From: Telmatactis stephensoni
Lineage: Eukaryota > Cnidaria > Anthozoa > Actiniaria > Isophelliidae
Direction: 5' to 3'
Length of the DNA: 64,000 bases
Assembly (NCBI GenBank): GCA_029948255.1
Contig: JALIZF010001417.1
Span: forward strand, 124,001-188,000
The position numbers and the translations under genes were made by a program. This document shows, piece by piece, positions 35,786-56,769 of the stretch. Numbering within the stretch: the first letter of the stretch is position 1; each line of letters starts with the position of its first letter. The notes beneath the pieces were generated by a model, which saw nothing but the letters and a program-made list of their open reading frames with translations, did no database searches and was not told the DNA's origin.

Positions 35786-35822
<37 letters not shown>

Positions 35823-38800
35823 AATGACCATTTCCCTAAGGTCATTGTTCCTTTTTTTTGCACGCGTTTTTGCCTGACAAGGAATCAAAGTTTCTTGCTC
35901 ATTTTAGTCACGTAATCAAAAGACCAAAAATATCCATTCATTTATCCAAAAAGCTAGATTCTAAAATTTGATTCATTCAATTTACCTGTCGTTTTTACTA
36001 ATTACTGTTCCCTTTTAAAGGAACAGTAGTAAATAGGACTACATATACATATAGGACCATCATTTAGAAGTACCGAACTACGTACGATGACAATTACTCT
36101 TCAAACTTTCTTCTGTCATAATGAAATATGGGAACACATTGACAAAAGTGGATAGACTCCAGCATATCCACCGCAGCCATGTTATCCGTTCTAATGTACA
36201 CTAGTTTATAAGACCAGAGAACTTACAGATCTATATCGAGGAATTTCCAAGTAGAATGTTAATGGGTCTTCACTAAAGACTCTTTGTTATCGTAATGGAA
36301 TAAAGGGATACATCGGCAAAAGTGGATAGACTCCAGCATATCCACCACAGCCATGTTATCCGTTCTAATTCACAGTAGTTTATAAGACCAGAGAACTTAC
36401 AGATCTATATCGAGGAATTTCCAAGTAGAATGTTAATGGGTCTTCACTAAAGACTCTTTGTTATCGTAATGGAATATATGGATACATCGGCACAAGTGGA
36501 TAGACGCCAGCATATCTACTACAGTCATGTTATCCATCTTAATACATTGTAGTTTGTAAGATCAGAGAAATAACAGATCTATATAAGAACCTTCCAAATA
36601 GTATGACAATGAGCCTTCACTAAAAACTCTCTTCTATCATAATGGAATATCTGGATACATTGGAAAAGGTGGATATATACATTCCATGTTATCCGTAATA
36701 TCCCTTATATCCTCTATAACAAATATGATAAGATATGATAGATAGATATCAGAGGATATAAGTTAGTAAACCTTTAAAAGTCTTATTTATACTAATGGAA
36801 TATCTGGATACATTGGAAAAGGTGGATATATACATTCCATGTTATCCGCGTAATATCCTTTATATCCTCTATAATAAATATATGATAAGATATGATAGAT
36901 AGATAGATATATGTTAGGATATTAGTAAACCTTTAAAAGTCTTATTTATACTAATGGAATATCTGGATACATTGGAAAAGGTGGATATATACATTCCATG
37001 TTATCCGTAATATCCTTTATATCCTCTATAATAAATATGATAAGATATGATAGATAGATAGATATATGTTAGGATGTTAGTAAACCTTTAAAAGTCTTAT
37101 TTATACTAATGGAATAATTGGATACATTGGAAAAGGTGGATATATACATTCCATGTTATCCGTAATATCCTTTATATCCTCTATAATGAATATGATAAGA
37201 TATGATAGATAGATAGATATATGTTAGGATGTTAGTAAACCTATAAAAGTCTTATTTATACTAATGGAATATCTGGATACATTGGAAAAGGTGGATATAT
37301 ACATTCCATGTTATCCGTAATATCCTTTATATCCTCTATAATAAATATGATAAGATATGATAGATAGATAGATATATGTTAGGATATTAGTAAACCTTTA
37401 AAAGTCTTATTTATACTAATGGAATAATTGGATACATTGGAAAAGGTGGATATATACATTCCATGTTATCCGTAATATCCTTTATATCCTCTATAATAAA
37501 TATGATAAGATATGATAGATAGATAGATATATGTTAGGATGTTAGTAAACCTTTAAAAGTCTTATTTATACTAATGGAATATCTGGATACATTGGAAAAG
37601 GTGGATATATACATTCCATGTTATCCGTAATATCCTTTATATCCTCTATAATAAATATGATAAGATATGATAGATAGATAGATATATGTTAGGATATTAG
37701 TAAACCTTTAAAAGTCTTATTTATACTAATGGAATAATTGGATACATTGGAAAAGGTGGATATATACATTCCATGTTATCCGTAATATCCTTTATATCCT
37801 CTATAATAAATATGATAAGATATGATTGATAGATAGATAGATATATGTTAGGATGTTAGTAAACCTTTAAAAGTCTTATTTATACTAATGGAATAATTGG
37901 ATACATTGGAAAAGGTGGATATATACATTCCATGTTATCCGTAATATCCTTTATATCCTCTATAATAAATATGATAAGATATGATTGATAGATAGATAGA
38001 TATATGTTAGGATGTTAGTAAACCTTTAAAAGTCTTATTTATACTAATGGAATAATTGGATACATTGGAAAAGGTGGATATATACATTCCATGTTATCCG
38101 TAATATCCTTTATATCCTCTATAATAAATATGATAAGATATGATAGATAGATAGATATATGAAAGGATGTTAGTAAACCTATAAAAGTCTTCTATATACT
38201 AAATAATGGAATATGTGGATACACTGGAAAAGATGGATATATAGATTCCATGTTATCCGTAATATCCCTTATATCCTCTATGATAAAAAACGAATCTTCT
38301 CTCTTGATACTTACTGTTATAAACAGTTAGATATCTTAGAGTATATGTCAATCAACCTATAAAAGTCTTCTATATACTAATGGAATATGTGGATACACTG
38401 GAAAAGATGGATATATAGATTCCATGTTATCCGTAATATCCCTTATATCCTCTATGATAAAAAACGAATCTTCTCTCTTGATACTTACTGTTATAAACAG
38501 TTAGATATCTTAGAGTATATGTCAATCAACCTATAAAAGTCTTCTATATACTAATGGAATATGTGGATACACTGGAAAAGATGGATATATAGATTCCATG
38601 TTATCCGTAATATCCCTTATATCCTCTATGATAAAAAACGAATCTTCTCTCTTGATACTTACTGTTATAAACAGTTAGATATTTTAGAGTATATGTCAAT
38701 CAACCTATAAAAGTCTTCTACATACTAATGGAATATCTGGATGCACTGGAAAAGATGGATATATAGATTCCATGTTATCCGTAATATCCCTTATATCCTC

Positions 38801-41800
38801 TATGATAAAAAACGAATCTTCTCTCTTGATACTTACTGTTATAAACAGTTAGATATTTTAGAGTATATGTCAATCAACCTATAAAAGTCTTCTACATACT
38901 AATGGAATATCTGGATGCACTGGAAAAGATGGATATATAGATTCCATGCTATCCGTAATATCCCTTATATCCTCTATGATAAAAAACGAATCTTCTCTCT
39001 TGATACTTACTGTTATAAACAGTTAGATATCTTAGAGTATATGTCAATCAACCTATAAAAGTCTTCTATATACTAATGGAATATGTGGATACACTGGAAA
39101 AGATGGATATATAGATTCCATGTTATCCGTAATATCCCTTATATCCTCTATGATAAAAAACGAATCTTCTCTCTTGATACTTACTGTTATAAACAGTTAG
39201 ATATTTTAGAGTATATGTCAATCAACCTATAAAAGTCTTCTATATACTAATGGAATATGTGGATACACTGGAAAAGATGGATATATAGATTCCATGTTAT
39301 CCGTAATATCCCTTATATCCTCTATGATAAAAAACGAATCTTCTCTCTTGATACTTACTGTTATAAACAGTTAGATATTTTAGAGTATATGTCAATCAAC
39401 CTATAAAAGTCTTCTACATACTAATGGAATATCTGGATGCACTGGAAAAGATGGATATATAGATTCCATGCTATCCGTAATATCCCTTATATCCTCTATG
39501 ATAAAAAACGAATCTTCTCTCTTGATACTTACTGTTATAAACAAATAGATATCTTAAAGTATATGCGAATCAACCTATAAAAGTCTTCTATATACTAATG
39601 GAATATCTGGATGCACTGGAAAAGATGGATATATAGATTCCATGTTATCCGTGAGAAATTTTGAGTCGTATTGTTGTATGACAATTGCCAAAAAACTTGC
39701 AATTAGCTAAGGTTCCTAAAGTCAATCCTAAAGTTCATTGTGCCTGATTGAAATGTTCTCTAATGATTCCATGAGTTTTAACACAGAGGCGGGCCTTTAC
39801 AACGTTTGTGCCCTTATAAGGCCTTGTTGTTCCGTTTTCTATCAGATTTATTCATCTCACATTCGGCCCAGTTAGGCCATAAAAAGGGAACTGTACAGTT
39901 CATTCTCTTGCAATTAGCTTCCTTTCGGCCCAGTTAGGCCATAAAAAGGGAACTGTACAGTTCATTCTCTTGCAATTAGCTTCCTTTAGTCAATTTTCTA
40001 TTGTGCTTGATTAGAATGTTCTCGAATGATTCCTACGGGAAGCGTTTTCCACAAGTTTCAACACAGAGGCGGGCCTTTAAAACATTTGTGCCCTTATAAG
40101 GCCTTGCTGTTCCGTTTTCCGTCAGATTTATTCATCTCACATTCGGCCCAGTTAGGTCATAAAAGAGAACTGTAGTACAGTTCATTCTCTTCATTCAAGA
40201 TGAACCGTTCAAGAGCACGGAACCCTTGCAGGCAGCTAAACAGCGAAGCCATCAAGAGTGCTGCATTTTGCTATCTCAGTCCAATTATATCAGGAAAATG
40301 TAGCATAATTAGTGCCAAGTGTGTCTGTGACACGAAGAGACTTGGAAAATCCTGGATAGAAATTTGTAAAAAGCGGGACCAGTGTGATGAAACATTGACA
40401 GGTAAATTGCTATTCAATTGCCAGTAAATTTATATTTTTTTCTCGGATGACGCTCAATTTCATTCAATGTTCTAGGTATCCGGAACGTGGCTTTTTATTT
40501 TAGTGCAATAAGTACACATGGAAAACCGAAAAGCAAAAAAACGGCCACTAATAACAGCGAAGATGAAGAGTGCGACGAAGAAGAGCCTTTGTTAGACAGC
40601 GACGACAGTGACATGACGAGTCAAGGGTGGGTGGAGAAAAACGAGACTATCGTTAAAAAAGGCTTACTGCCAGCCATTGGATATTGGATTGCCTTAACAA
40701 CGCCAAATGGTGCCCCGGCGAACCCCCTGCCAATCTATCAAGCTCTACTGGAATGTGGTGTTACTACCATTGCTAATCAGGTATTAACTTGTGTTTGGAG
40801 TTAGATGAATGAATCGTCATTAAACGATTTTTGTTTTTCCTCCTCTTTTTGACAGGTCAAGTTTCAAGAGAGCAAGGAATGCCCTGCCATGAAAGAACTG
40901 TACAAAATTCTCAAAGATCACAAGAACGGTTTCATGCAAAACCTGGTGAACAGTTCTTATCAGCAGAGTTTGAAAGACGAGGCCTCGCAACTGATCACCG
41001 ACAGTTACTGGGACGATATCGATGAAAGTGCCACGGAAAATGTAGTTCGAGTAAAAGTTGTAAATAAGTCCTTTCAACCTGCTCTTTTGGCAGCCATCTC
41101 AAAACTTGAAGACGCCAAATTGAACATAGACAGATTTGGATTTGAGTTGATTGACGCAGATCAAAGCACTGACGTTGAAGCACAAAGAGAAATTACCACT
41201 AAAAAGCAAGAGGAATGTCAACGACTGTCAGACAATTTGACTGTCTTAATTAATGACGTAGGAATAGCCATGAAAAAACTGGAGTACGCCATACACAGGG
41301 GAAAAGTATACAAAAGACATCCCAAAGCCAAATTTACTTACACCTTCAAGTGTGAACCCAGAGCATTTGTGAATAGTCTGGCGGCAAATGTGTTTTTCAA
41401 AGGTCGGTTGTTGAAAGATATGAAGAAAGTGATAGACATTCTTTCCGACCCATACTGTGAGGTTATTCGCCCGATTGTGATCGATTACGATTTGATAGAA
41501 GTCCAAAGAGGCCAATGTTGGTCCATCAAAGAGCGGCGTTTTGTGCCATGCCCAATCAAGGATGAAGATGTCGGTTTATTAACACCCCGGGCGTATTGTG
41601 AGTACGATCCAATGAAGACACCTGAGCCCAAATACTTCCGTGAAATTCTTGAAAATAGTCTCAGTGACGAAGAGCTTGAAACCTTCTGTGACGATTTCCT
41701 CAAGCTTCTAAAGCATCACAAAAAAGAACACAAAGACCAAGTGCCTTGTTTGGTAGGCGATACCAATAGTGGAAAAACCAGCCTTTTCCTTCCTATTCTG

Positions 41801-44800
41801 GGCATTGTGCATCACAGCAATGTAGCAACAGTTACCAAACAACGCGTATTCAACAAAGCCATGATCAATAAATCCACAGAAGTCATCTTCATTGACGAAG
41901 CCACTCCCACCACCTTGGACATAGATGACTGGAAAATCCTCACACAAGGTGGATACGCAGCCTATGATGTAAAATACCAAACGGCCAAGTCCTTCATCAA
42001 CAAATGTCCAATGCTGATAACATCTCAAGCCAAGCTAAAATTTGAGTCCGAAGATCAAGACGCCATGGATCGCCGACTCCGAACCTATGTCTTCAAAAGC
42101 CTGCCTAATCCCCAAAAGGGTGCAGCGGTGTGGTTGAAAAAAAATCCCATGGATTGTATTGTTTGGGCAGCTTCAAAAGCCCGCAGAGCAGAGGAATCGA
42201 GTGATGCAGAAAACCACGAAGACACAGAAAGTGAGCCAGAAGATGGGGTACTTCAACAGCTGGAAAAAGACGAATTGCGATCTTTACAGCTTACAGAATT
42301 GCTTGCTAGCCAAATACCAGCAGAACACACCGAACAAGACATGGACAGCAACACAGAAGATGACGGTGGTGATACCGAAAACCAAGAACTTCGGCCAGAA
42401 AATGACCAACCAGAGGAACAACAAGAAACAGAAGAGCGCATAAGTGCTCTGAGAAAAGCAATGAAGAAATGTACTCCTGGTTCACTAAAGCATCGGCAGA
42501 TTGAAAGTCTTTTGCAGGTAATCGCATTTATATCGTTATCGCTAATTATTTCGATCATTCAAAATGTTTTTTGTTTGTCTGTTTGTTTCACTCAAGGTTC
42601 AGATACAGAGAAAACAAGAAGAAAAAGAACAAGCAGAACATCATTACAAAAAGCGACAACGGTTACTTCTCTCCAAAGGAGTCAGTCCAGAACACGTGCA
42701 ACTACTCCCAAGAGATGATCACGTTCCTTTACCCCTGCCCATTGTCCAAGATTTGGACAGATTCCACTTGCAATTACTGGAACAAAACAAAGCGAAAATG
42801 AAAGAAAAGTTGACGATTGTGTTTGACAAGAAATGGCTCCAAAATATTGAAAAAGATATGCACAACTGCCACTCTCAGCTTTGTGACGCCATCTTAAGCA
42901 CCTCCATGCCTCAAGAGAAAAGATCTTCCCTAAAGAGTTACAGGGACCTCCTGTCCCAAAAGTTGAAAATGTTTTATGAACATTTCAAATTAAATGGCTG
43001 CGAAGAAGCGATAATGGAGAGACGCAAGAAATGTATTGAGTGGGGACTTGTTGAACGTGCACAGGCGCAGTTGATTAAGTCTTTACACGAGCCACTACCC
43101 CTTGCCCAAGATTCTGAACCTTCCACAAGTCAAGCACAGTCCTCTGCTGAACCTCTGGCCATTGCAGACAAAGATCCTGAGAGAGACACCGAGAGTACCG
43201 ACGACGAAGGTTTCATCACGCCGGAAGAAGACTCAAGCAGTCAGTCAGTCCTACCATCCACTTCCATGAAGAGAAAGGCCATTTCTCAAGACATCTTAGA
43301 TGATGAAGAGTAGTGTTGATTGAGATAAAAGGATGACGTTCAATTATGTGTGGAATATTATGTTATCATGAATTCAAGTTAATAAAACAAGTGAAACAGG
43401 TTCTATATTTTTCTCTCTTTATTTAAATTTCCTCATTGCACGGTTTAGTAAAGAATTTCCCGTTCTTCCTTTTTGAAACTTGTATCTTGAATCCTTCAAA
43501 ATAGCAGACCACTGTCCATACCCATGTCTTTTTATACCGGCTTTTAAGTATGCATCTTCTTCTGGGGTAAACAACAATATTTTTCTTTTTTGGGCAGTTC
43601 TATCATTTGTAGTGGGTTGATCCGGTTTATTGACGCTATCGTCCTGGGTGTCGCTCGGTGAATCTTTTTCCGGAGAAGTGTTTGGACTATCTGAAAGTCG
43701 AGATGAAACTTCCCCTTCCAATTGGGATCCCTTTTCACCATGCAATTTCTTCAAACACTCGTGAGCTTTCGTGGCTACATCGCGAGATCGTCGTTTCTGA
43801 TAATGTACTTTGGCCACCACGGAACTGTGTTTTTGATCCTCGGTGATCGATTCTTGTTCGCTACTGATAAGTTGTTGATGACTTGCAGTCTCGACGATTT
43901 GACGATACCTCGTGGGATGAATAAATTTGCCAGTAGCTTCAAACACCATTCTGCTCATGAGCTGGCCAATCTTGGTGTGTTGTTGTCCTTTTAGCGTGAC
44001 GAGAACATACTCGCAGGTGGGCTTCAAAAGAGGACGAACATGCGCAATGTAAGAATCCAAAACCTGCATGCTAGCTTGCGACAGATATAGGGAGTCAAAT
44101 CCAAATCGTGCTGTCGTTTTAAACTTTTTCTGGTCGATAAAACCATCATTGTCCTTTGCTGTCTTAACCATGTCAACGGTCAGATACTGATAGGTCATTG
44201 GACGCGATCCTTTGACTTTGATGAATAAATAAACGGCGACAAATCTGGTAGCAAACGACAAGTCTGAAGGAGTGGCTTTGTTGGGTTTTTCTTTGCACAA
44301 TTTGGACACTGTGTCGTAACGCGGAAGGTGATACGTCACCACGTGCAAAAGTTCATCTAGTGTCGCCCAGTGTCCCTTAGATTCTAACGTATCAATATCT
44401 AGATCGCTAGTCCACTGCAATCTCATCATTTTAGAAACTGTTTTGCGTGCGCGTTTCAAATAAACTTCAGTAGACGTTAGATTTCGTAAAACACTTTCGG
44501 AAGTAATACCAATAACTTTTCGAAAATCGATCAAGTCACTAATTGAGTCCAAGTAGGCAATTCGACCAGAATGTCCAAGTCCCCAATCGGTCTGCATGGC
44601 GTCAACAAACTTAAAGAGAAAATTTGGCGAACTTAAACTGAAATCAACTAGATCCCAAGTCAAATCTTCTTCTTCATCGCCATCACAGCAGAACTTGAGA
44701 TACTTAAAACTTCTTCGTACAATTTGTTGCGTTTGTCTCTGACTTTTACATCCACCCCCACTGCCAGTTAACCATTTTTCAAATTGCGTACCAATCGTAG

Positions 44801-47800
44801 AATTAATATCAAATGAAGCAACGTATCTTGTCAAACACTGTTCTCTTTTTTCCGATTCGTGTTGGTTTGGGTCACTAGTTTGTTTGCTTGTACAGGGCTT
44901 AGAATCAAAGTAATAAAACCAGGCATGCTTGTTTTTGACGTGCTTTCTGCATCCTCTTTGAGATGAAAATCCTTCTTCGTGTGAACATTTTTCAACTGGA
45001 CAGTGAAATAAACCGTCCTTTTCGTCTGCTTCTAAGTGTAATCTCTTTGGTTTTGGCGAGGCGCCATCCTGCTCGGACCAGTCAATGTTACCCCTGGCCC
45101 GTTTACTCATACTGAACAGCAAGTGCACGAGATATAATTTTATGTACTTAGTCTCTAGGGACTAGATAATCTAGAGGAGCCAATCACAACTGCGCAAACT
45201 AAGGCATGTTCAAACATGTCTGACTTTTTTGCTGAAAGAGCACGTTCAGAAATGTATAGGCACGTTTCAAAGTGAACGTGGGCATGTTCAAACAAGAATG
45301 GACATGTTTAAACAAGAATGGACATGTTTAAATATGAATGGGCAAGTTTAAACATGAATGGGCAAGTTTGAACAAGAACGGGCAAGTTTGAACAAGAACG
45401 GGCAAGTTTGAACAACAATGGGCAAGTTTGAACAAGAACGGGCAAGTTTGAACAAGAACGGGCAAGTTTGAACAACAATGGGCAAATTTAAACGTGTCCA
45501 TGCATGTCCAGACATGTTTACACTTGTATAATCCTGTTGAAACAAGTTTGAGTTTGTTTAAGCCTAAAACATTCAAAAGGAACGATCGTTCCCTTTCACT
45601 CATTCCTATCACGTTCCTATCATGAAAAAGGAACATTCGTTATAAAGGAACAAGTGTTCCTATTCAATACGGGAACAAACGTTCCTAATCAGAACAGGAA
45701 CAAACGTTCCTATCATCTAAGAAGGAACAAACGTTCCTATCTACATGAAAAAGGAACAATAGTTCCATTTTACGCAAATGGGAACTGTTTACGTAGCAAT
45801 TAGGAACAATAGGTCCGATTTTGACCAAACAGGAACAAAAGCGTTCCGATAACCGATTTTTAAGTTCCTCTTTTAGGTTTTTGTAGGACCAAATTTGACG
45901 TTCCGATTTACCTTAAAGGAACTAAAACAAAAACTCGCGGAACGTTCCTTAAATGCTAAAATGATTATCACACTTCTGAAACTAAACAGAAAAACTTTAT
46001 AACACCAGAAGCATGACTCTAAAACTCAAAACAAGCCGTCGATTCAGTTTTAAAGTAAAGCATGTTGCGAAGCGCGAAAAAACGACTATCATTGATTTAG
46101 GGAAATGGCGATGATGATGATATAGTGTTAATCATATAAATCTGTTCAGTTGATGATTACATTTTAAAATTCACTTTCAGTGACCAGACACCTCAATTAC
46201 CCAGCATATCAATTCAATGTTTTGAGGATGATCATATTTTCCAGAAAATTTAATGTCTATTTTGCTCTCTCCAAAGATTATGCTTTGAAGGTATGCTTTT
46301 CAATTTTTAGTGTAGCTAGCATACTGGGTCGGGTTGGATGAAGATGGATTAGCAGCCCAGGTGGAAATTCTTATTAAGATCTTATAAGATTCTTATTAAG
46401 ATTCTTATAAGATCTTATTAAGATCTTAATAAGATCTTAAACATCTTACTTTATGAAAAATCTTACAAGATTTAATAATAAGATCTTATTTAAGATTGTG
46501 AATCTTATCAAGATCTTAATAAGAAATCAAATCTTGTAAGATTCTTATAAGATCTTATAAGATCTTGTAAGATCTTACAAAGTTTTCCACCTGGGAGTAT
46601 TTACAGGGGTAAAATTGAAGGTTTTCTTTAGACTTATAATCAACCCAAGGCTAGCACCCATCTTTGAACAACTAGACTCTGGATGTATACTCGGGACCAC
46701 TAGGCCCACATTTTACAAAGTGTGCATAACAGAGCAGAAATTTTGAATGTTTTATAGGCATGGCACTGACAATGTCACGGAACTGTGCAGCTTGTTGCAC
46801 ACTTACATGGAAACTGCTTTATGTACATACAGTCATTTCTTTTTCACTCTAAATCTTATTAAACTCATTGCCACTGATAAGGTTGGCTTGTGGCCATAAT
46901 GCCGCCATGAGGAATATTCACCTGTCTGTGGCAACAAAGGTCAGGTTAAACCATTCATGGTTCAGGACCTAGTAGCACCCATCACACTGATACTAGGTAC
47001 TATCAGTGGAAAGTATATTTGCAAACCTACCATACTTACTAGAGAGAGGAGGGTGAGGCCAAAAGCAATTGAGCAGCCATGATCAAGCAAGCTATGGATC
47101 TTCTACGATCAGCAAGAAAGATGGATCCACAATTATCTACAAGAATGATAGATCTGCTATGATGCACATGTATAACCACAAGTGAGGGTAGCCTGAGTTG
47201 CTGGTGGTCTGCGGTTTGCAGCGCCAGCAACACAGGCTAAAGTGAGGGCCCCTGTATGACTTAGGGTCCCCCTACACATTCATGCAAAAGACTGCTGGCC
47301 TGCAGCATGCCTCTTTAATGCTTAAATTTCATTTAGCCTCAATAATTTCTGTTAACAGTTTTTGCTTTTTGCATCTAAAACTCTAAAACGTTATTGGCTT
47401 TGTGTTTCAGGTGTTTAACCTTAACTTCCATGAAGTGATTTCGGTATCTGCTGAGATGCATTCAGTATTGTGTATGGTGTTTAACCCTGGTAGGAATGAG
47501 CTTATTACTGGTGGTACTGGAGGCATGAAGGTAGGTTCTTTAGCCTGCTCTGAAGGCATGTTTTTCCTTGTGGGATTCCTTTGGAAGGAGGAGCGACTGT
47601 AGAGAGTAGCAAAGAAATATATGAAAGAAGGGGGAAGAGGGCCATTTTTACCACAGGAACCCCAACTTTGAGAATTGTCCATGGAGAAGGCTAGCAAGTG
47701 ATATTGAGAGAAAAGGTGCATAGTGACATCATAATGTTGTCATGGTAACATTTATCAACTGAATGAATGTAATATTTGATATGATATAGTTGTCATTTCA

Positions 47801-50800
47801 CAAGTTTGCTACACTGTGAATCTACTGTATCTATTTATATATCCATGTGATTTATAAGGCACGTTATTGGAGCCCAGCTCTTTTGCATGTCCCTCCTCAC
47901 CTTTATATATTTTTTATTTGTATTTATTTTATTTATATTTTTATTTGTTGTTTTAATTTGGTGAAAGTTTAGTAAATAAATATAGATTATATATGTTGTG
48001 ACAGTCAGTTTTGAAATGACTGAAAATTTTATGTCAATGCATTTTGATTGGTCAGAGTTGATATATGTCTTATTCAAAAAAGAAAGGCATGGCACAGTAC
48101 AGATTTTCTCATAGGCATGCAAAAGCAACTCTCTTACCATAAGAAGCCATGATTGCACAGTAGAATTTTCACTTCATTGCACTGCATTTTTAGTTCTGGA
48201 GATTTGGTGAGCTGTCAAAAGACAAGAGAAAGTCATGGCATAATGAGTCAAGACCAATGGCTAATTATGGACTTGTACTTAGGTTAGTCAAAGATGTATA
48301 AAAGCATTCAAGAAGGCAACAGATTGTAGGATTTCTCTCATGTGACAGTCAGAAAACATCTTTTGTCCCATGATGTCACAAACTGATTCTTACTGGTTTT
48401 ATAATTATAGAATACTGAATTTATTGTCAGCTGGTCACAGACCAACAGCACAGATTTGCCCAGTTGGTTGAGTGTTGGTTTTGGGGATACATGTAGACTC
48501 CCAGCCGGACCAACACCCATGGTCTTTAAATAACTAAGGAGAAGGTGCTGCCTTTGTAAATTACATTCTGCAGTTGTTTAGACCTTCACATCTTCTTGGA
48601 TAAGGAATTGTTACACTGTAGGCCATGTCTTGTCCACTACACATTACCCTTGAATTGAAGGGACCCACACCACTATTTGGGGAGAGTAGGCCATGAAGTT
48701 GCTGGTGTGTGTGGTTTGTCCTATAACACTACAAGGCCCACAGTAATCAACTGTCCAAGCTGTTGTGGTGTCCCTGCCTTCATTGGAGGGAATAAGATTG
48801 TAAATAAATAAATTTCCACAGTACTGTTACTTCATGAAATTGCTCTGACTAGTAATGAGTACTACCTCATGCATGCACTCAGGAGCAGTTTTCACTGCAA
48901 TGCACCACCATCACCTAAATGTCATTGCATTACCACTGTGTGCATAATTACGCGTCCAGCCAGACTAAAGTCTTGATTGGGATTTGGTCAATAGGCTACC
49001 GGGAAGCCAGCAAAGTGTACAGACATTGTATAGAAAACTCCGCCTCTGTCTGGATTTTTGGTAGCCTATTGACCAAATTCCCAACAGCGACTTGAATCTG
49101 GCAGGACGCGTAGTTTTGCACATGGTGGTAAGTCTCTTGATTTTTCACTTAGTATTATGCTAACTTGTAAGCGGTCAAGAGTGCACTCTGGAATACCTCA
49201 AGGATTGGTAGTAGTTCCCAGAAATGTCATGCAATAACTAAGGCTTGCCTATTACTAATTGAGAGTTCCCATATATTTTAGGGCTTCTTATCCAAAGATG
49301 GGCGGCAGTTGGGTCAAACATGTGGAACTTGATGTTGCAATGCAGGTACAGTAACTCCCTTTCCAACCACCTCTTGTATGTGACCATGCACCTCTCCTTG
49401 GGGACCATGCAGTTTTCCAATGTACAAAAACTGTGGCACCTTCTTTGTGTACCAGATACAATTTACATAGTTCAGTACAATGTAGACAAACAAAAGGCTC
49501 CAAGTGAGAACAATAGAACAAAGCTACAGTAATAAAGAATATATTATTTAATAATGGTTCTGGTACACAGAGAGACCTAAACTGAATTTCCCATTCAAAT
49601 TCTTGATACCTCTCATACATGTAGGTAATCATCTCCTACAAGTGATCACCTAGAATTGAAATTTTGGATTCTTTCTTATAGGAAGTTTGACTGTTTGCAA
49701 GTTAGGCCCCTTTTATCCTGAAATATTGGGAGATTTTTGCTACTTTTGAATTGCATCTTATTTTTATTTTTTTATGTTGCTTTTTTCCAGAGATTATATT
49801 GTTTGTCAGAGCGTAATGTGGTAGCATATGACATGATTGGCAATGAGTTATTTCAAGTTAAAAAGTAAGCATTTTTCCTTTCTCTCCTTTCATTCTGTCC
49901 TCCTTCCCTATTTCTCATTTTGCTGTTATTTGTCCCTCCTTTTCCCCCTTTTTCTTTGCTTTCTTGCTTTCTTGCTTCCTTCCCTTCTTTCCCCTTTCTC
50001 GCCCTCCCTTCCTCCCTCCCTCCTTCCCTCCTTCCCTCCTTCCCTCCTTCCCTCCTTCCCTTCCGTTCCTTCCTTCCTTCCTTCCTTTCCTCCTTCCTTC
50101 CTTCCCCCTTCTTTCCTTAATTCATTCCATTCCTTTCTTCCCTCCCTCCTTCCTTGCTTCCTTGCTTTCTTCCTTGCTTTCTACCTTACTTCCTCCAAGT
50201 CCTTCTTACCTCCATTACAGTATTTCATCTTTCCTTCCTGCCACTCTTCACTTCATTTGTCATCTCTTTCCTTCCCAGTGCCCACAGGGGACCTGTTACA
50301 GGATGTGTATATTCAATATCTTGCAATTTACTGGTCACTGCTGGCAATGACTGTGATGGTAAGCTAGATTATTAAAATACAGTGTAGATGTTGCATGCTA
50401 TGGAAAAATTAATAATACTGTTAATTATTCTTATTCCAACAGTCAATGTGTGGAGTCGCAGTGGAGGACTTGTGCACACATTTAGCTGTCATACAAAGGT
50501 AAGTGTACCCTCGATCCCTCCCTATTGCTACAATGACTGTTTTTTGTACGTTTATTGTTCACATTATCCATATTATTATCTATTATATATATCATTAGGT
50601 TATAAGCAAGATAATGATTCATCCCGAAGCATCAGGTGTGGTCATAACTGCATCCATGGATGGGATGGTCAAAGTCTTCTCACTTGATATTATGGAGGAA
50701 ATCTACAGGTATGTGCCACCCAATAATCTCAATCTACAAATAAGGTAAGATCCTGGTGGGGTGGATTTAGGGGAGGGGTGCAGGGGGGGGGGGGTGTACC

Positions 50801-53800: not shown

Positions 53801-56769
53801 TCCAGCTACCCGCTTAGAGGCGTGGCAGATAGATTACGTTGAGGACATCCACACTCTTCACTCAACTGACCACTCCCCAAAATCCGAGGACAAGTACACC
53901 ATGGACCAGGCGCTCATGATGGACAAAGGTGACTTGATAATCATTTATAATATAATCAGGATAGTACGGATGCTCTAATTGGCCAGAAAACGCTAGTGGA
54001 TGACAAATTAGAACTGATTTCGTGCAAAACGTACAGTCTGAACGTATACGGTATAGTTAGGGTTTTTAGTTCAGAAAATATACCCAATCCAGAATCAATG
54101 TTGCACTCGTACAAGCTGCTTTATAGAAGGAAGGGGAGGAAAGGGAAAGAGAAGAGGCTCAATGGTATGAAAAGGAGATTCATGAATACATTTAGAGAAG
54201 TGAAAAGATAAATGGGTGTTGCTTCTCTTCTTGATCCCTCTTCTGTCTACTATTCAAATACTTTATCTTTGCATATTAGTGGTTTATTAAGTCTCAACGA
54301 TTGCAAAACCCGACAGGACAGGACAGACACCATTTCATGGTCCCTGTTTTAGGGAGGGAAAACTTTCTAAAGCGGACAACTTGGATTGATTATTAAAGAG
54401 TCCGTCTTTTATTGAGCTCATTTTTATTTTATTTTAATGTAGCTCATTGTAATTTTTGTAGATCTCCAAGCCCAAGAACGAACTCCACGCTACCACAAAG
54501 TCCTCGCGTCACCACACCACGTGATGGAGGCAGCTTACTCTTTCCTGATTCGTCCACTCTTCAACATGACCACGTGTCAATCACGTGTCTCGGGTTGCTT
54601 TGTTCTCCTGTCATCATAGAGTCCGTGGAAGGACCTGCGTGTCCTGATGCAACGCATTTTCTATTAGCTGGAACAGAAGTAGGTGGAATTGTGATTAAAA
54701 TCAACTTTGCCTGGTGGAATATATTGCTGAGTCTGTGTATGTTGCTTGTGCTTATGCTATGTCACTAGTGAAAAGACAAGCACGGCTAATGAGCAGTACA
54801 TTGCTGAGTCTGTGTATGTTGCTTGTGCTTATGCTTATGTCACTAGTGAAAAGCCAAGCACTGCTAATGAGTAGTACATTACAGAGTCTGTATGTTGCTT
54901 GTGCTTATGCTTATGTCACTAGTGAAAAGACAAGCACTGCTAATGAGCAGTACATTACTGAGTCTCTGTATGTTGCTTATGCTTATGTCACTAGTGAAAA
55001 GACAAGCACTGCTAATAAGCAGTACATTCCTGAGTCTGTGTATGTTGCTTGTGCTTATGCTTATGTCACTAGTGAAAAGCCAAGCACTGCTAATGAGCAG
55101 TACATTACTGAGTCTGTGTATGTTGCTTGTGCTTATGCTTATGTCACTAGTGAAAAGACAAGCACTGCTAATGAGCAGTACATAACTGAGTCTGTGTATG
55201 TTGCTTGTGCTTATGCTTATGTCACTAGTGAAAAGACAAGCACTGCTAATGAGCAGTACATTACTGAGTCTGTGTATGTTGCTTGTGCTTATGCTTATGT
55301 CACTAGTGAAAAGCCAAGCACTGCTAATGAGCAGTACATTACTGAGTCTGTGTATGTTGCTTGTGCTTATGCTTATGTCACTAGTGAAAAGACAAGCACT
55401 GCTAATGAGCAGTACATTACTGAGTCTGTGTATGTTGCTTGTGCTTATGCTTATGTCACTAGTGAAAAGACAAGCACTGCTAATGAGCAGTACATAACTG
55501 AGTCTGTGTATGTTGCTTGTGCTTATGCTTATGTCACTAGTGAAAAGACAAGCACTGCTAATGAGCAGTACATTACTGAGTCTGTGTATGTTGCTTGTGC
55601 TTATGCTTACCTCACTAGTGAAAAGACAAGCACGGCTAATGAGCAGTACATAACTGAGTCTGTGTATGTTGCTTGTGCTTATGCTTATGTCACTAGTGAA
55701 AAGACAAGCACTGCTAATGAGCAGTACATTACTGAGTCTGCGTATGTTGCTTGTGCTTATGCTTATGACACTAGAGAAAAGACTAGCACTGCTAATGAGC
55801 AGTACATTACTGAGTCTGCGTATGTTGCTTGTGCTTATGCTTATGACACTAGAAAAAAGACTAGCACTGCTAATGAGCAGTACATTACAGAGTCTGTGTA
55901 TGTTGCTTGTGCTTATGCTTATGACACTAGAGAAAAGACAAGCACGGCTAATGAGCAGTACATTACTGAGTCTCTGTATGTTGCTTGTGCTTATGCTTAC
56001 CTCACTAGTGAAAAGACAAGCACGGCTAATGAGCAGTACATAACTGAGTCTGTGTATGTTGCTTGTGCTTATGCTTATGACACTAGAGAAAAGACAAGCA
56101 CTGCTAATGAGTAGTACATTACTGAGTCTGCGTAGTTGATAGTCCCCTTTACTAACTCTGACCGTACGAAAAATAACCGAGTTAAAACCCGTACCGTTTC
56201 CAGATACGAAATCTCTGTGTTATTCTTGTTTTAGGACGGTAGAGTGTTGTTCCTTCACATGTTCTGCAAAGGAATGAAGTACTCCCAGTTAAAAGTACAC
56301 AAGGGCTTGGTAAGACATCATTCTCGTATTAGTCACGTACCGATGCCTTCAATTTCGTTCGTAGGAGCAAGGCTGGCGTATTGCGGGCTAGTATTACGTT
56401 TTTCCTCATTTCTTCATTGGACGCAACGCGTATACACTTAGATTTAGAAGTGCTTAGTTACCTAAGTAAAATCATTCCCATCAAACTAGGAGCTCAAGGG
56501 CTTTCACTCGGGCGTCTGTGGCATAGACCACAGTATTAGTATTGAATGTCTTTTTGATAGACAAAAGGAAAGGTGAACACCACAGTAGCCCGAGTAACTA
56601 GGTGTTGTTTCTCCAGGTTCAGGAAGTCAAGCATGATGAAGATTCCAATACGATGGTCACCCTGTGTCGGTCTGTTGATGGCATTGATGCGCAGTTTTGG
56701 TCACTTCCTAATTTGGCTCTCCTAAGAAAGATCACGTGTGACGGTGACATCACATGTCACGTGCGAATG
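34306..56769 (+). CDS. WD40-repeat protein, WDR87/WDR97-like (16 exons seen, 3' end outside or not found)
   Basis: Exons: 34306-34564, 35423-35509, 46181-46290, 47411-47530, 48194-48282, 49282-49345, 49791-49864, 50279-50358, 50443-50498, 50599-50708, 52027-52233, 53207-53365, 53795-53928, 54443-54678, 56235-56309, 56617-56769. Every junction is GT/AG with matching phase; total 2013 bases, 671 codons. Residues 1-86 are an acidic, Ser-rich N-terminus; the rest is a beta-propeller with blades ending in GGTGGMKFW, AGNDCDGVNVW, ASMDGMVKVF, IDSQQIWIYY and AGTEDGRVLFL. Text such as QFVILDSRGITSW and FNPGRNELITGG resembles large WD40 proteins of the WDR87/WDR97 kind, which are linked to cilia and sperm flagella; that assignment is from memory and tentative. 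The donor at 56770 shows that the gene continues. Introns carry a satellite, the helicase/recombinase element and many MITEs. Confidence 0.75.
34655..34810. mobile_element. 156-bp MITE with GCATAC target duplication
   Basis: Inverted ends AGTGGACCCAGGATTTT / CCTGGATCCACCACT, flanked by GCATAC at 34649-34654 and 34811-34816. The centre has G and C runs. A fragment of the same family (GGATCCAGGGGGTGTCCATA) lies at about 31900-31945. Confidence 0.7.
35423..35509 (+). CDS. WD40 gene exon 2
   Basis: Phase 1-1 exon of 87 bases after TTATTTCTGCAG; encodes TYNYRFRQFVILDSRGITSW, a beta-strand pair typical of a propeller start. The next exon lies 10.7 kb downstream. Confidence 0.75.
35538..35826. repeat. 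GAT/GAG microsatellites
   Basis: GATGATGATGAGGAGGAG-type triplets at about 35541-35590 and a (GAT)n run at about 35788-35822. Frames across them are low-complexity artefacts. Confidence 0.8.
36120..39652. repeat. satellite array in three ordered subfamilies (174, 155-159, 174 bp)
   Basis: About 21 tandem units marked by TAATGGAATATCTGGATAC and ATTCCATGTTATCCGTAATA. Unit starts step by 176, 174, 174 (36120-36643), then 153-159 (36644-38207, with TAGATAGATAGATATATG filler), then exactly 174 (38208-39600, with AAAAACGAATCTTCTCTCTT). Inside the 155-159 block two variants (GGAATATCTGG and GGAATAATTGG) tend to alternate, and inside the last block near-identical pairs and triplets recur. The array is in the WD40 gene intron and stops abruptly at about 39652. 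Confidence 0.95.
39702..40199 (+). promoter_or_regulatory. repeated promoter region of the helicase gene
   Basis: A block containing CGGCCCAGTTAGGCCATAAAA followed by GGGAACTGTACAGTTC occurs at about 39863, 39923 and 40143. A wider segment (CACAGAGGCGGGCCTTTA to TTATTCATCTCACATTC) is present twice (about 39784-39862 and 40060-40142). The last copy places a CATAAAAG TATA-like box about 40 bases before the ATG. The GAACTGTACAGTTC palindrome echoes the GGAAC/GTTCC palindromes at the other end of the unit. Confidence 0.6.
40200..43313 (+). CDS. superfamily 3 (viral-type) DNA helicase, spliced
   Basis: Exons 40200-40401, 40476-40780, 40856-42517 and 42597-43313; short introns, GT/AG junctions, phases 1, 0, 0; 961 residues. 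SF3 helicases are hexameric motors that unwind replication origins in parvoviruses, papillomaviruses and similar small replicons. Motifs seen: Walker A GDTNSGKT (residues 470-477), Walker B VIFIDEA (512-518), motif C CPMLITSQ (553-560) and an arginine-finger-like MDRRLRTYVF (573-582). The N-terminal half has Cys-rich and acidic stretches; I see no HUH nuclease motif. The C-terminus is acidic, with a Lys/Glu-rich likely coiled coil around 725-760. AATAAA at 43381-43386 is the poly(A) signal. Frames are intact, so the gene may be active. Origin could be viral or transposon; family-level identity is uncertain. Confidence 0.8.
43381..43423. terminator. facing poly(A) signals of the two convergent genes
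   Basis: Plus-strand AATAAA at 43381-43386 serves the helicase gene. Minus-strand AATAAA at 43418-43423 overlaps the TAA stop of the recombinase gene at 43419-43421. The two genes share a 105-base gap. Confidence 0.7.
43419..45110 (-). CDS. tyrosine recombinase with C2H2 finger and Myb/SANT domain
   Basis: Single exon, 563 residues; ATG at 45110 (the frame extends upstream only through non-ATG codons). N-terminal C2H2 finger FHCPVEKCSHEEGF...HVKNKH (about residues 35-62). A tyrosine-recombinase catalytic domain follows: KGSRPMTYQYLTVD supplies the first Arg (R303), FKTTARFG a candidate Lys, HPTRYRQ the H-x-x-R (H398, R401), H428, and the nucleophile Y437 nine residues later, the spacing seen in XerD-type enzymes. 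The C-terminus (about 510-560) is a Myb/SANT-like domain: FTPEEDAYLKAGIKRHGYGQWSAIL. Such enzymes cut and rejoin DNA at specific sites; finger and Myb domains would add DNA binding. Upstream are a TATA-like ATAAAATTATAT (45132-45143) and a CCAAT box near 45180. The stop codon overlaps AATAAA. Confidence 0.85.
   Translation of the reverse strand: MSKRARGNIDWSEQDGASPKPKRLHLEADEKDGLFHCPVEKCSHEEGFSSQRGCRKHVKNKHAWFYYFDSKPCTSKQTSDPNQHESEKREQCLTRYVASFDINSTIGTQFEKWLTGSGGGCKSQRQTQQIVRRSFKYLKFCCDGDEEEDLTWDLVDFSLSSPNFLFKFVDAMQTDWGLGHSGRIAYLDSISDLIDFRKVIGITSESVLRNLTSTEVYLKRARKTVSKMMRLQWTSDLDIDTLESKGHWATLDELLHVVTYHLPRYDTVSKLCKEKPNKATPSDLSFATRFVAVYLFIKVKGSRPMTYQYLTVDMVKTAKDNDGFIDQKKFKTTARFGFDSLYLSQASMQVLDSYIAHVRPLLKPTCEYVLVTLKGQQHTKIGQLMSRMVFEATGKFIHPTRYRQIVETASHQQLISSEQESITEDQKHSSVVAKVHYQKRRSRDVATKAHECLKKLHGEKGSQLEGEVSSRLSDSPNTSPEKDSPSDTQDDSVNKPDQPTTNDRTAQKRKILLFTPEEDAYLKAGIKRHGYGQWSAILKDSRYKFQKGRTGNSLLNRAMRKFK
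45190..45560. promoter_or_regulatory. array of p53-type half-sites, 20-bp period
   Basis: At 45202-45221 AGGCATGTTCAAACATGTCT is a full p53-family consensus (two RRRCWWGYYY with no spacer). From 45280 to 45469 ten further RRRCWWGYYY decamers (GGGCATGTTC, GGACATGTTT, then GGGCAAGTTT) occur every 20 bases, alternating with decamers such as GAACAAGAAC; 45480 is degenerate. AGACATGTTT (45510) and AAACAAGTTT (45540) also match. The array lies 90-450 bases upstream of the recombinase start. It may instead be a set of iterons bound by an element protein. Confidence 0.65.
45579..45960. promoter_or_regulatory. cluster of GGAAC-N4-GTTCC palindromes
   Basis: Six exact copies start at 45579, 45647, 45672, 45697, 45724 and 45753 (for example GGAACAAACGTTCC); degenerate copies lie near 45630, 45805, 45831 and 45943. 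Spacing is mostly 25-29 bases, about 2.5 helical turns. A dyad-symmetric protein site repeated this way suits an origin or a recombinase accessory site. Confidence 0.7.
46181..46290 (+). CDS. WD40 gene exon 3
   Basis: Phase 1-0 exon after TTCACTTTCAG; encodes VTRHLNYPAYQFNVLRMIIF and RKFNVYFALSKDYALK. It supplies exactly the phase change needed between exons 2 and 4. Confidence 0.75.
46356..46595. mobile_element. MITE made of AAGATCTTA palindromes
   Basis: Ends CCCAGGTGGAAA / TTTCCACCTGGG. The 215-base interior is almost entirely overlapping copies of TTATAAGATCTTATTAAGAT-type sequence, so it can form many alternative hairpins. No target duplication is clear. Confidence 0.65.
46600..47400. 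other. intron without recognised features
   Basis: No exon or clear repeat apart from a weak inverted pair at about 47190-47235 (GCCTGAGTTGCTGG / CCAGCAACACAGGC). Confidence 0.35.
47411..47530 (+). CDS. WD40 gene exon 4
   Basis: Phase 0-0, 40 codons: VFNLNFHEVISVSAEMHSVL then FNPGRNELITGGTGGMK, ending in a WD40 blade strand that continues into exon 5. Confidence 0.8.
48194..48282 (+). CDS. WD40 gene exon 5
   Basis: Phase 0-2; encodes FWRFGELSKDKRKSWHNESR and MANYGLVLR. The FW completes the GGMKFW blade end from exon 4. Confidence 0.75.
48940..49126. mobile_element. MITE with ends TGTGCATAATTACGCGTCC
   Basis: Left arm through AGCCAGACTAAAGTC and GGGATTTGGTCAATAGGCTA is complemented on the right (TAGCCTATTGACCAAATTCC ... 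GGACGCGTAGTTTTGCACA). No coding capacity. Confidence 0.65.
49282..49864 (+). CDS. WD40 gene exons 6 and 7
   Basis: Exon 6 (49282-49345, phase 2-0) encodes ASYPKMGGSWVKHVELDVAM. Exon 7 (49791-49864, phase 0-2) encodes RLYCLSERNVVAYDMIGNEL. Donors GTACAG and GTAAGC. Confidence 0.75.
49870..50215 (+). repeat. (CCTT)n/(CTTC)n pyrimidine tract
   Basis: About 340 bases of CCTTCCCT-type tetranucleotide repeat in the intron before exon 8. Long Ser/Pro/Phe-rich open frames across it are artefacts of the repeat. Confidence 0.9.
50279..50708 (+). CDS. WD40 gene exons 8, 9 and 10
   Basis: Exons 50279-50358 (phase 2-1), 50443-50498 (1-0) and 50599-50708 (0-2). Together they encode two blades: AHRGPVTGCVYSISCNLLVT with AGNDCDGVNVW, then IMIHPEASGVVITASMDG ending KVF. 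Confidence 0.8.
50862..51145. mobile_element. MITE with about 115-bp inverted arms
   Basis: Left arm AAGAGAGCATAATACTAAGA... through AGTAACTTCGCCATCGCGCG matches the complement of the right arm to about 95 percent by eye. A short AT-rich loop contains AAACGGCCCCGTC. Confidence 0.7.
51580..51684. mobile_element. 105-bp MITE with TAGACTGCGAGCAGTCCC ends
   Basis: Perfect 18-base inverted ends around a short T-rich loop. Related ends are common in other foldback elements; here there is no open frame. Confidence 0.65.
52027..52233 (+). CDS. WD40 gene exon 11
   Basis: Phase 2-2 exon of 207 bases: LPVFHEGINWMECVSSKIIY, FALNHVVDFWALSRCC and SSRVMAVGNDSR. Rich in CACGTG- and GACGTC-type codons compared with the flanking AT-rich introns, consistent with true coding sequence. 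Confidence 0.75.
52320..52740 (+). repeat. diverged copy of FN3-cassette intron sequence
   Basis: Shares TTGTGATATTGTTTAAAC, GAAAGCTTTCCTGAGTTTT, TAGCAAAATTTCTGAGTGGG and GTTGATATATTATCAGTCTG with the introns at about 15070-15850 (and copies 2 and 3). So that intron segment is itself part of a dispersed repeat. Confidence 0.6.
53207..53928 (+). CDS. WD40 gene exons 12 and 13
   Basis: Exon 12 (53207-53365, phase 2-2): IRLMSRDGRSLSTVLPPPSI, then LLIDSQQIWIYYT. Exon 13 (53795-53928, phase 2-1): TNPATRLEAWQIDYVEDIHT, then KYTMDQALMMDK. A MITE family B relative lies between them. Confidence 0.75.
53558..53690. mobile_element. MITE family B, degenerate copy
   Basis: TTTCGTATGAGTGTGCGGAA left end and GTCAGTGCCGTGTTGTCTAT interior match 16358-16487; right end decayed. 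Confidence 0.6.
54443..54678 (+). CDS. WD40 gene exon 14
   Basis: Acceptor chosen at TTTTAATGTAG/CTCATTG because it alone matches phase 1 of exon 13; the nearer TTTTTGTAG at 54462 would break frame. Encodes CNFCRSPSPRTNSTLPQSPR, DHVSITCLGLLCSPVIIES and HFLLAGTE. The donor GAA/GTAGGT joins to DGRVLFL of exon 15, restoring a blade end. Confidence 0.75.
54715..56140 (+). repeat. 78-bp minisatellite, about 18 copies, in an intron
   Basis: Unit GAGTCTGTGTATGTTGCTTG + TGCTTATGCTTATGTCACTA + GTGAAAAGACAAGCACTGCT + AATGAGCAGTACATTACT. A few units lack six bases. Because 78 is a multiple of three, two frames stay open for hundreds of codons. The exon 14 frame itself stops at 54768, and exons 14 and 15 join across the array, so it is very likely not translated. 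Confidence 0.9.
56235..56769 (+). CDS. WD40 gene exons 15 and 16
   Basis: Exon 15 (56235-56309, phase 0-0): DGRVLFLHMFCKGMKYSQLK. Exon 16 (56617-56769, phase 0-0): VQEVKHDEDSNTMVTLCRSV, DAQFWSLPNLALLRKIT. A strong GTAAGTA donor follows at 56770, so more exons exist beyond; none was found up to 64000. Confidence 0.75.

Follow-up and report, generated by a model that had tools for sequence, protein, structure and literature searches.

The known eukaryotic elements that encode tyrosine recombinases are believed to owe their mobility either to recombination or to reverse transcription. In prokaryotes, phage satellites (SaPI/PICI, P4) combine an integrase with a replicative helicase of the superfamily 3 (SF3) type in an element of roughly the size considered here, and also carry a primase domain and packaging genes. 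The yeast 2-micron plasmid is not known to be integrative or to have an SF3 helicase. It is named in the Crypton paper (PMC3212892), where Cryptons are proposed to pass through a circular intermediate, with recombination between 4- or 6-bp repeats, and where animal Cryptons are described as having neither a C-terminal domain nor terminal repeats. Among viruses, tyrosine recombinases occur in some of the Polinton-like viruses and virophages, and SF3 helicases likewise in some (PMC4642659). Endogenous nimaviruses, which are large crustacean viral genomes, typically encode a recombinase with a C2H2 zinc-binding domain that inserts into host simple repeats, the targets being (TAACC/GGTTA)n or 28S rDNA (PMC10871703). 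Here we describe an element with two convergent genes, a tyrosine recombinase and an SF3 helicase, in a 64,000-nucleotide stretch of the Telmatactis stephensoni genome (contig JALIZF010001417.1, our G000:C542:124001-188000; hereafter the window; GC content 38%). We put at roughly three in four the probability that it is a 10.3-kb autonomous hexacoral DNA element behaving like an integrative plasmid, that is, one that is excised, copied with its SF3 helicase, and inserted into (TGA)n tracts or into the junctions of resident copies.

The element occupies positions 35828-46108 of the window (10,281 bp), and comparison across copies fixes both ends to the base. The initial annotation had set the ends at 39655 and 45965; these are now replaced, so that satellite arrays previously left outside (36136-39652, with 174-, 155-, and 174-bp units) fall within the element, as satellite of the same kind does in other copies. 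The two convergent genes that it had predicted are present, with the helicase gene at 40200-43313 (+) and the recombinase gene at 45110-43419 (-). A 1,001-bp probe from beside the helicase gene, searched against the 483.5-Mb host genome, found 11 places. Ten of the matches are full length, eight of which are 100% identical and gapless (the window counted); the eleventh, on C16 (L018), is 718 bp long and cut by a contig end. All but one of the 11 copies extend through both genes, and the same convergent order recurs in a distinct subfamily (L050, below), contrary to the first outcome that would have refuted the initial interpretation, namely two genes that never occur together elsewhere. When the window was compared with ten other loci and its own, identity entered the satellite leftward and stopped at 46114-46130 rightward. 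Of 10 copies, eight have a recombinase frame of 563 amino acids (aa), against 557 aa in L016 and 444 aa in L017. Exon 3 of the helicase is likewise fully open in eight of the 10, the exceptions being L011, where it is shortened, and L013, where it is split. Judged from these sequences, the gene pair is a recent, multi-copy mobile element. A pair of single-copy host genes, which would have spoken against mobility, is rejected given the multiple copies matched by the helicase-side probe and the many relatives of the recombinase (904 at E up to 1e-3) and of the helicase (241).

At the left, a (TGA)n microsatellite with 14 TGA copies (35786-35827), whose final six bases, TAATGA, form the left spacer, is followed by the left inverted arm CCATTTCCCTAA (35828-35839, +). 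This arm is common to the copies (CCATTACCCTAA in a diverged set), and the sequence outside it differs. At the right, the inverted arm TTAGGGAAATGG (46097-46108, +), again placed by copy comparison, is followed by the spacer CGATGA and the remainder of the TGA target tract (46109-46121). We kept all 30 candidates returned by a search for left ends (10 full-length and 20 partial). Outside 24 of them, TGA occurs 6-20 times in the adjoining 60 bp, whereas 1,772 background 60-mers from the window average 1.2 occurrences and only 1.0% of them have at least five; the other six adjoin another copy directly, with no tract. At 21 of the 30 left ends the spacer next to the arm is TGATGA, and at the remaining nine it is a close variant of this; the CCATTACCCTAA arm occurs at 11 (L030, L031, L040-L045, and L047-L049). 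Ten right ends were read: six pass through a TGA tract into unrelated DNA, two through a TGA tract into another copy, and two directly into a copy.

Where copies lie head to tail, the junction reads TTAGGG(A/T)AATGG-6 bp-CCATTTCCCTAA, that is, 12-bp inverted arms around a 6-bp spacer. A tyrosine-recombinase site is described as two inverted repeats of 11-13 bp around a spacer of 6-8 bp (PMC3212892), and in layout the element's site agrees with this. Direct junctions with the spacer TGATGA are found at L026, L027, L036, L037, and L038; L026 and L027 show no difference in the 1,500 bp examined to either side, so that C1367 and C441 may be two contigs of a single locus. The arm-spacer-arm arrangement is what the junction of a circle would be expected to look like, and exact ends together with head-to-tail junctions fit a circular intermediate. 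The TGATGA junctions would also fit the short direct repeats and recombinase-made circle proposed for Cryptons. Integration of a circle is strongly supported at the level of sequence, and the recombinase probably inserts DNA circles into TGATGA repeats. Because the target is a mere TGA tract, its choice would probably depend on homology to the 6-bp spacer, by analogy with relaxed integrases. At one further locus (L046, C857:1-3046, near position 1500) a head-to-tail junction joins two arm variants through the spacer CTATGA; this is apparently a tandem of two subfamilies.

The recombinase is a single open frame of 563 aa with a C2H2-like motif at its N-terminus and a Myb domain at its C-terminus (Pfam PF00249, E 1e-6), and its fold is that of a tyrosine recombinase. 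The catalytic residues predicted by the initial annotation (R303, H398-x-x-R401, H428, and Y437) hold their numbering when counted from the methionine at 45110, and none of the five varies across an alignment of 19 sequences, made up of the window's own and 18 of 120 listed relatives. No Pfam recombinase family matches any of the 19 at E up to 0.5. For the Myb domain, the nearest solved structures to the 19-sequence profile in the PDB are TRF2 (E 2.8e-5) and TRF1 (E 7.4e-5). TTAGGG is present in both arms, which, together with the TRF-like Myb, suggests that this domain may read the arms. Insertion into telomeres is unsupported, as the loci examined contain no (TTAGGG)3 tract.

The helicase gene is modeled with four exons (40200-40401, 40476-40780, 40856-42517, and 42597-43313, +), a predicted splicing pattern that yields 961 aa. 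The SF3 motifs expected from the initial annotation are present (Walker A, GDTNSGKTS; Walker B, VIFIDEAT; and motif C, MLITSQ), and structure prediction gives an SF3 fold like those of viral Rep, E1, and D5, the best match being the SaPI5 helicase, tied with Rep40 of adeno-associated virus (AAV). Pfam SF3 families match weakly: across 23 aligned helicases at E up to 0.5, DUF5906 matches 14, Parvo_NS1 12, and PPV_E1_C seven, and the best family for the window's helicase, DUF5906, scores 26.5 bits, slightly under the cut-off of 27.6. By sequence, the helicase profile found nothing among solved structures at E up to 1.

Upstream of the helicase gene is a 62-bp tandem duplication (39862-39987, +), with the perfect palindrome GAACTGTACAGTTC in each copy (at 39888 and 39950). 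The repeat arrays reported next to the recombinase gene are confirmed: a 20-bp tandem array of 10.8 copies (45279-45493) and a 25-bp array (45644-45766), the latter within a stretch holding six GGAAC-N4-GTTCC palindromes (45579-45766). Besides the two genes, only two unspliced open reading frames (ORFs) of at least 90 aa that start with methionine are found in the element, one within the 20-bp array and the other antisense to the helicase; genes made of small exons could escape such a scan. Neither gene has a Pfam match to a reverse transcriptase.

The L050 unit, on C182, represents a diverged subfamily and has the two genes in the same convergent order, with recombinase identity to the window of 83% and helicase identity of 37%. 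Its helicase retains the SF3 motifs and apparently has more introns. The same 20-bp array is present, together with ten GGAAC-N4-GTTCC sites at a period of ~25 bp. The palindrome array is thus kept at the recombinase end in both subfamilies, which makes it a candidate origin or a candidate set of accessory recombinase sites. The satellite differs, with a 331-bp unit located at the same end as the 174-/155-bp satellite of the window. L050 belongs to an array inside a 753-kb contig, where four left ends lie 9,219-9,220 bp apart; the analysis covered these four left ends, three direct junctions, and one unit in full (L050). Over the 1,500 bp compared, neither the left ends nor the flanks of the junctions differ within the array, but the left 1,500 bp match a dispersed copy, L034 on C4, at 100% as well, so that in this part the C182 units are no closer to each other than to L034. 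Several other arrays sit at contig ends; arrays are therefore probably under-assembled, and the copy counts given here are lower bounds.

Copies in the host genome (L009-L019 and L020-L029) are mosaic, in that the left end, helicase, recombinase, and right end differ in their nearest relative. The window and the C160 copy, for instance, are 99.9% identical over the left 1,500 bp, show no mismatch and one gap in the recombinase gene, and show no mismatch and 20 gap positions at the right end; in the helicase gene, by contrast, the window matches L009, L010, and L012 at 100% identity and C160 at 99.1%. Such differences between segments indicate that copies recombine.

In other genomes, the best 120 of the 904 recombinase relatives show 59-96% identity, and those named among them are Actinostola, Porites, and Oculina. 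Named among the best 120 of the 241 helicase relatives are Oculina, Acropora, Porites, Montipora, and Desmophyllum. L050-type helicase relatives occur in Actinostola; the query here was the ORF at the N-terminal end of that unit's helicase, which does not include the Walker motifs. We take all of these genera to be hexacorals. Contigs of equal size (21,646, 81,048, and 2,264,954 bp) appear in both best-120 lists, and the last is from Porites lobata in both. This suggests that recombinase and helicase lie on the same contigs in other genomes, although equal size, compared by eye, is no proof of a shared contig, and a contig of 2.26 Mb would show no close linkage. Viral contigs (IMG/VR, scanned with single queries and alignments) and genome contigs contained no confirmed relatives outside animals, and PHROGs returned nothing below E 0.09 for three proteins.

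How might such an element move? In the scheme we favor, the recombinase would pair the two ends, each a 12-bp inverted arm with a 6-bp spacer that is usually TGATGA, and excise a circle; its Myb domain may read the TTAGGG in each arm. The SF3 helicase would then load on the circle, perhaps at the GGAAC-N4-GTTCC palindromes, and host polymerases would copy it. Finally, the recombinase would insert the circle into a (TGA)n microsatellite through homology to the 6-bp spacer; where it instead enters the junction of a copy already in place, head-to-tail arrays would result. The initial annotation had proposed a circle made by the recombinase and copied by the helicase, and this is supported in part. 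The exact ends and head-to-tail junctions fit the circle. The helicase probably copies it, an inferred step that would account both for the abundance of identical copies and for the arrays.

The most serious competing account is a reduced virus or viral satellite, descended from a DNA virus with an SF3 helicase and a recombinase (e.g., a Polinton-like virus), whose capsid genes were lost or whose packaging is provided by a helper. Both kinds of gene have precedent, tyrosine recombinases in some Polinton-like viruses and virophages and SF3 helicases in several (PMC4642659), and the fold of the present helicase, with its Parvo_NS1 and PPV_E1_C matches, is like viral ones. However, no capsid or packaging gene is found among element ORFs of at least 90 aa (again, genes with small exons could escape), IMG/VR yielded no confirmed relative, and a search of phage records with the recombinase gave no match. 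We consider this origin unlikely. A direct derivation from a papillomavirus or parvovirus was rejected, as the helicase fold is in common but no capsid gene is seen. Slightly less probable still is a Crypton-like transposon with an incidental helicase, which would excise and reinsert while its copies rise through host replication or repair. The circles and 4- or 6-bp repeats proposed for Cryptons (PMC3212892) would accommodate it. Against it, two subfamilies whose helicases are only 37% identical both retain the helicase next to the recombinase, in unchanged order and with SF3 motifs kept, and the equal-sized contigs suggest the same pairing in other genomes; pairing kept across such divergence points to a needed helicase function. 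Host segmental duplication with unequal crossing-over at microsatellites, with no transposition, would account for the mosaic copies and for the long (TGA)n tracts, which recombine easily, between some neighboring copies (right ends L010 and L013). This account is disfavored and very improbable, given that copies on different contigs share the same ends to the base with unrelated sequence outside (six right flanks and the unique left flanks read).

Two observations weigh against the integrative-plasmid reading and its telomere-linked Myb. TTAGGG occurs at three sites in the element where about four are expected, so an enrichment of this motif is rejected. In addition, all 19 recombinases match a CHD1-type helix-turn-helix family in Pfam, one more than the 18 that match the Myb family, so the resemblance to TRF is suggestive but not exclusive. 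For these reasons, we have slightly lowered our probabilities both for the integrative-plasmid reading and for the element's novelty as a class.

Set against described systems, the element shares with Cryptons (CryptonA) a tyrosine recombinase without a reverse transcriptase, and differs from animal Cryptons in its Myb C-terminus, 12-bp inverted arms, second gene, and satellite array. The main text of the Crypton paper (PMC3212892) contains neither "helicase" nor "Myb." The inverted arms and C-terminal Myb preclude filing it as an animal Crypton, a separation made by description and not by clade. Lacking a reverse transcriptase, the two-gene element also falls outside the DIRS/Ngaro retrotransposons. 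The integrase/helicase pairing recalls phage satellites, including through the SaPI5 helicase match, whereas the element, unlike PICI, resides in an animal genome and has a spliced gene, two genes only, and no visible packaging gene. Polinton-like viruses and virophages have capsid and packaging genes; none are seen here, and the absence of visible capsid genes prevents assignment to that group. Endogenous nimaviruses resemble it, by description, in a C2H2-type recombinase and simple-repeat insertion. The 2-micron plasmid, a circle of eukaryotic DNA that encodes a tyrosine recombinase of its own, is a further parallel. Overall, integrative plasmids and phage satellites come nearest to it in working principle, and Cryptons in integration enzyme. 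Among the papers listed in literature searches (few subscription journals or preprints, and without Repbase), none described this recombinase-helicase pairing in an animal element in its title or the opening of its abstract, which is weak evidence. On balance, we lean, if only just, toward a class of mobile DNA in animals that has gone undescribed: an integrative replicon without a capsid that would exist both as a circle replicated by the SF3 helicase and as head-to-tail TGA-microsatellite arrays, and whose recombinase has captured a telomere-repeat-reading Myb for its TTAGGG arms.

An insertion in an intron of a WD40 gene, as originally suggested, is unconfirmed: exon-like ORFs occur on both sides, but none of five flanking pieces passes the Pfam cut-off, and one (50599-50724) matches several WD40/beta-propeller families below threshold (E 0.13-0.27). 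Just beyond the right end, the flanking DNA has AT-rich palindromic repeats of the ATCTTATAAGAT type (46369-46577), and a tandem repeat farther on (54699-56111), whose repeated units form a 471-aa frame without stops, is probably a minisatellite.

The exact attachment (att) site, common trinucleotide target, and recent identical copies make the proposals above directly testable, and the TRF-like Myb on the recombinase offers a testable case of a telomere-reading domain used for site recognition. The element may also be useful as an integrase evolved in eukaryotes. A stand-alone element with its own replicative helicase would correspond, in animals, to integrative plasmids and phage satellites, and could plausibly connect transposons with small DNA viruses.

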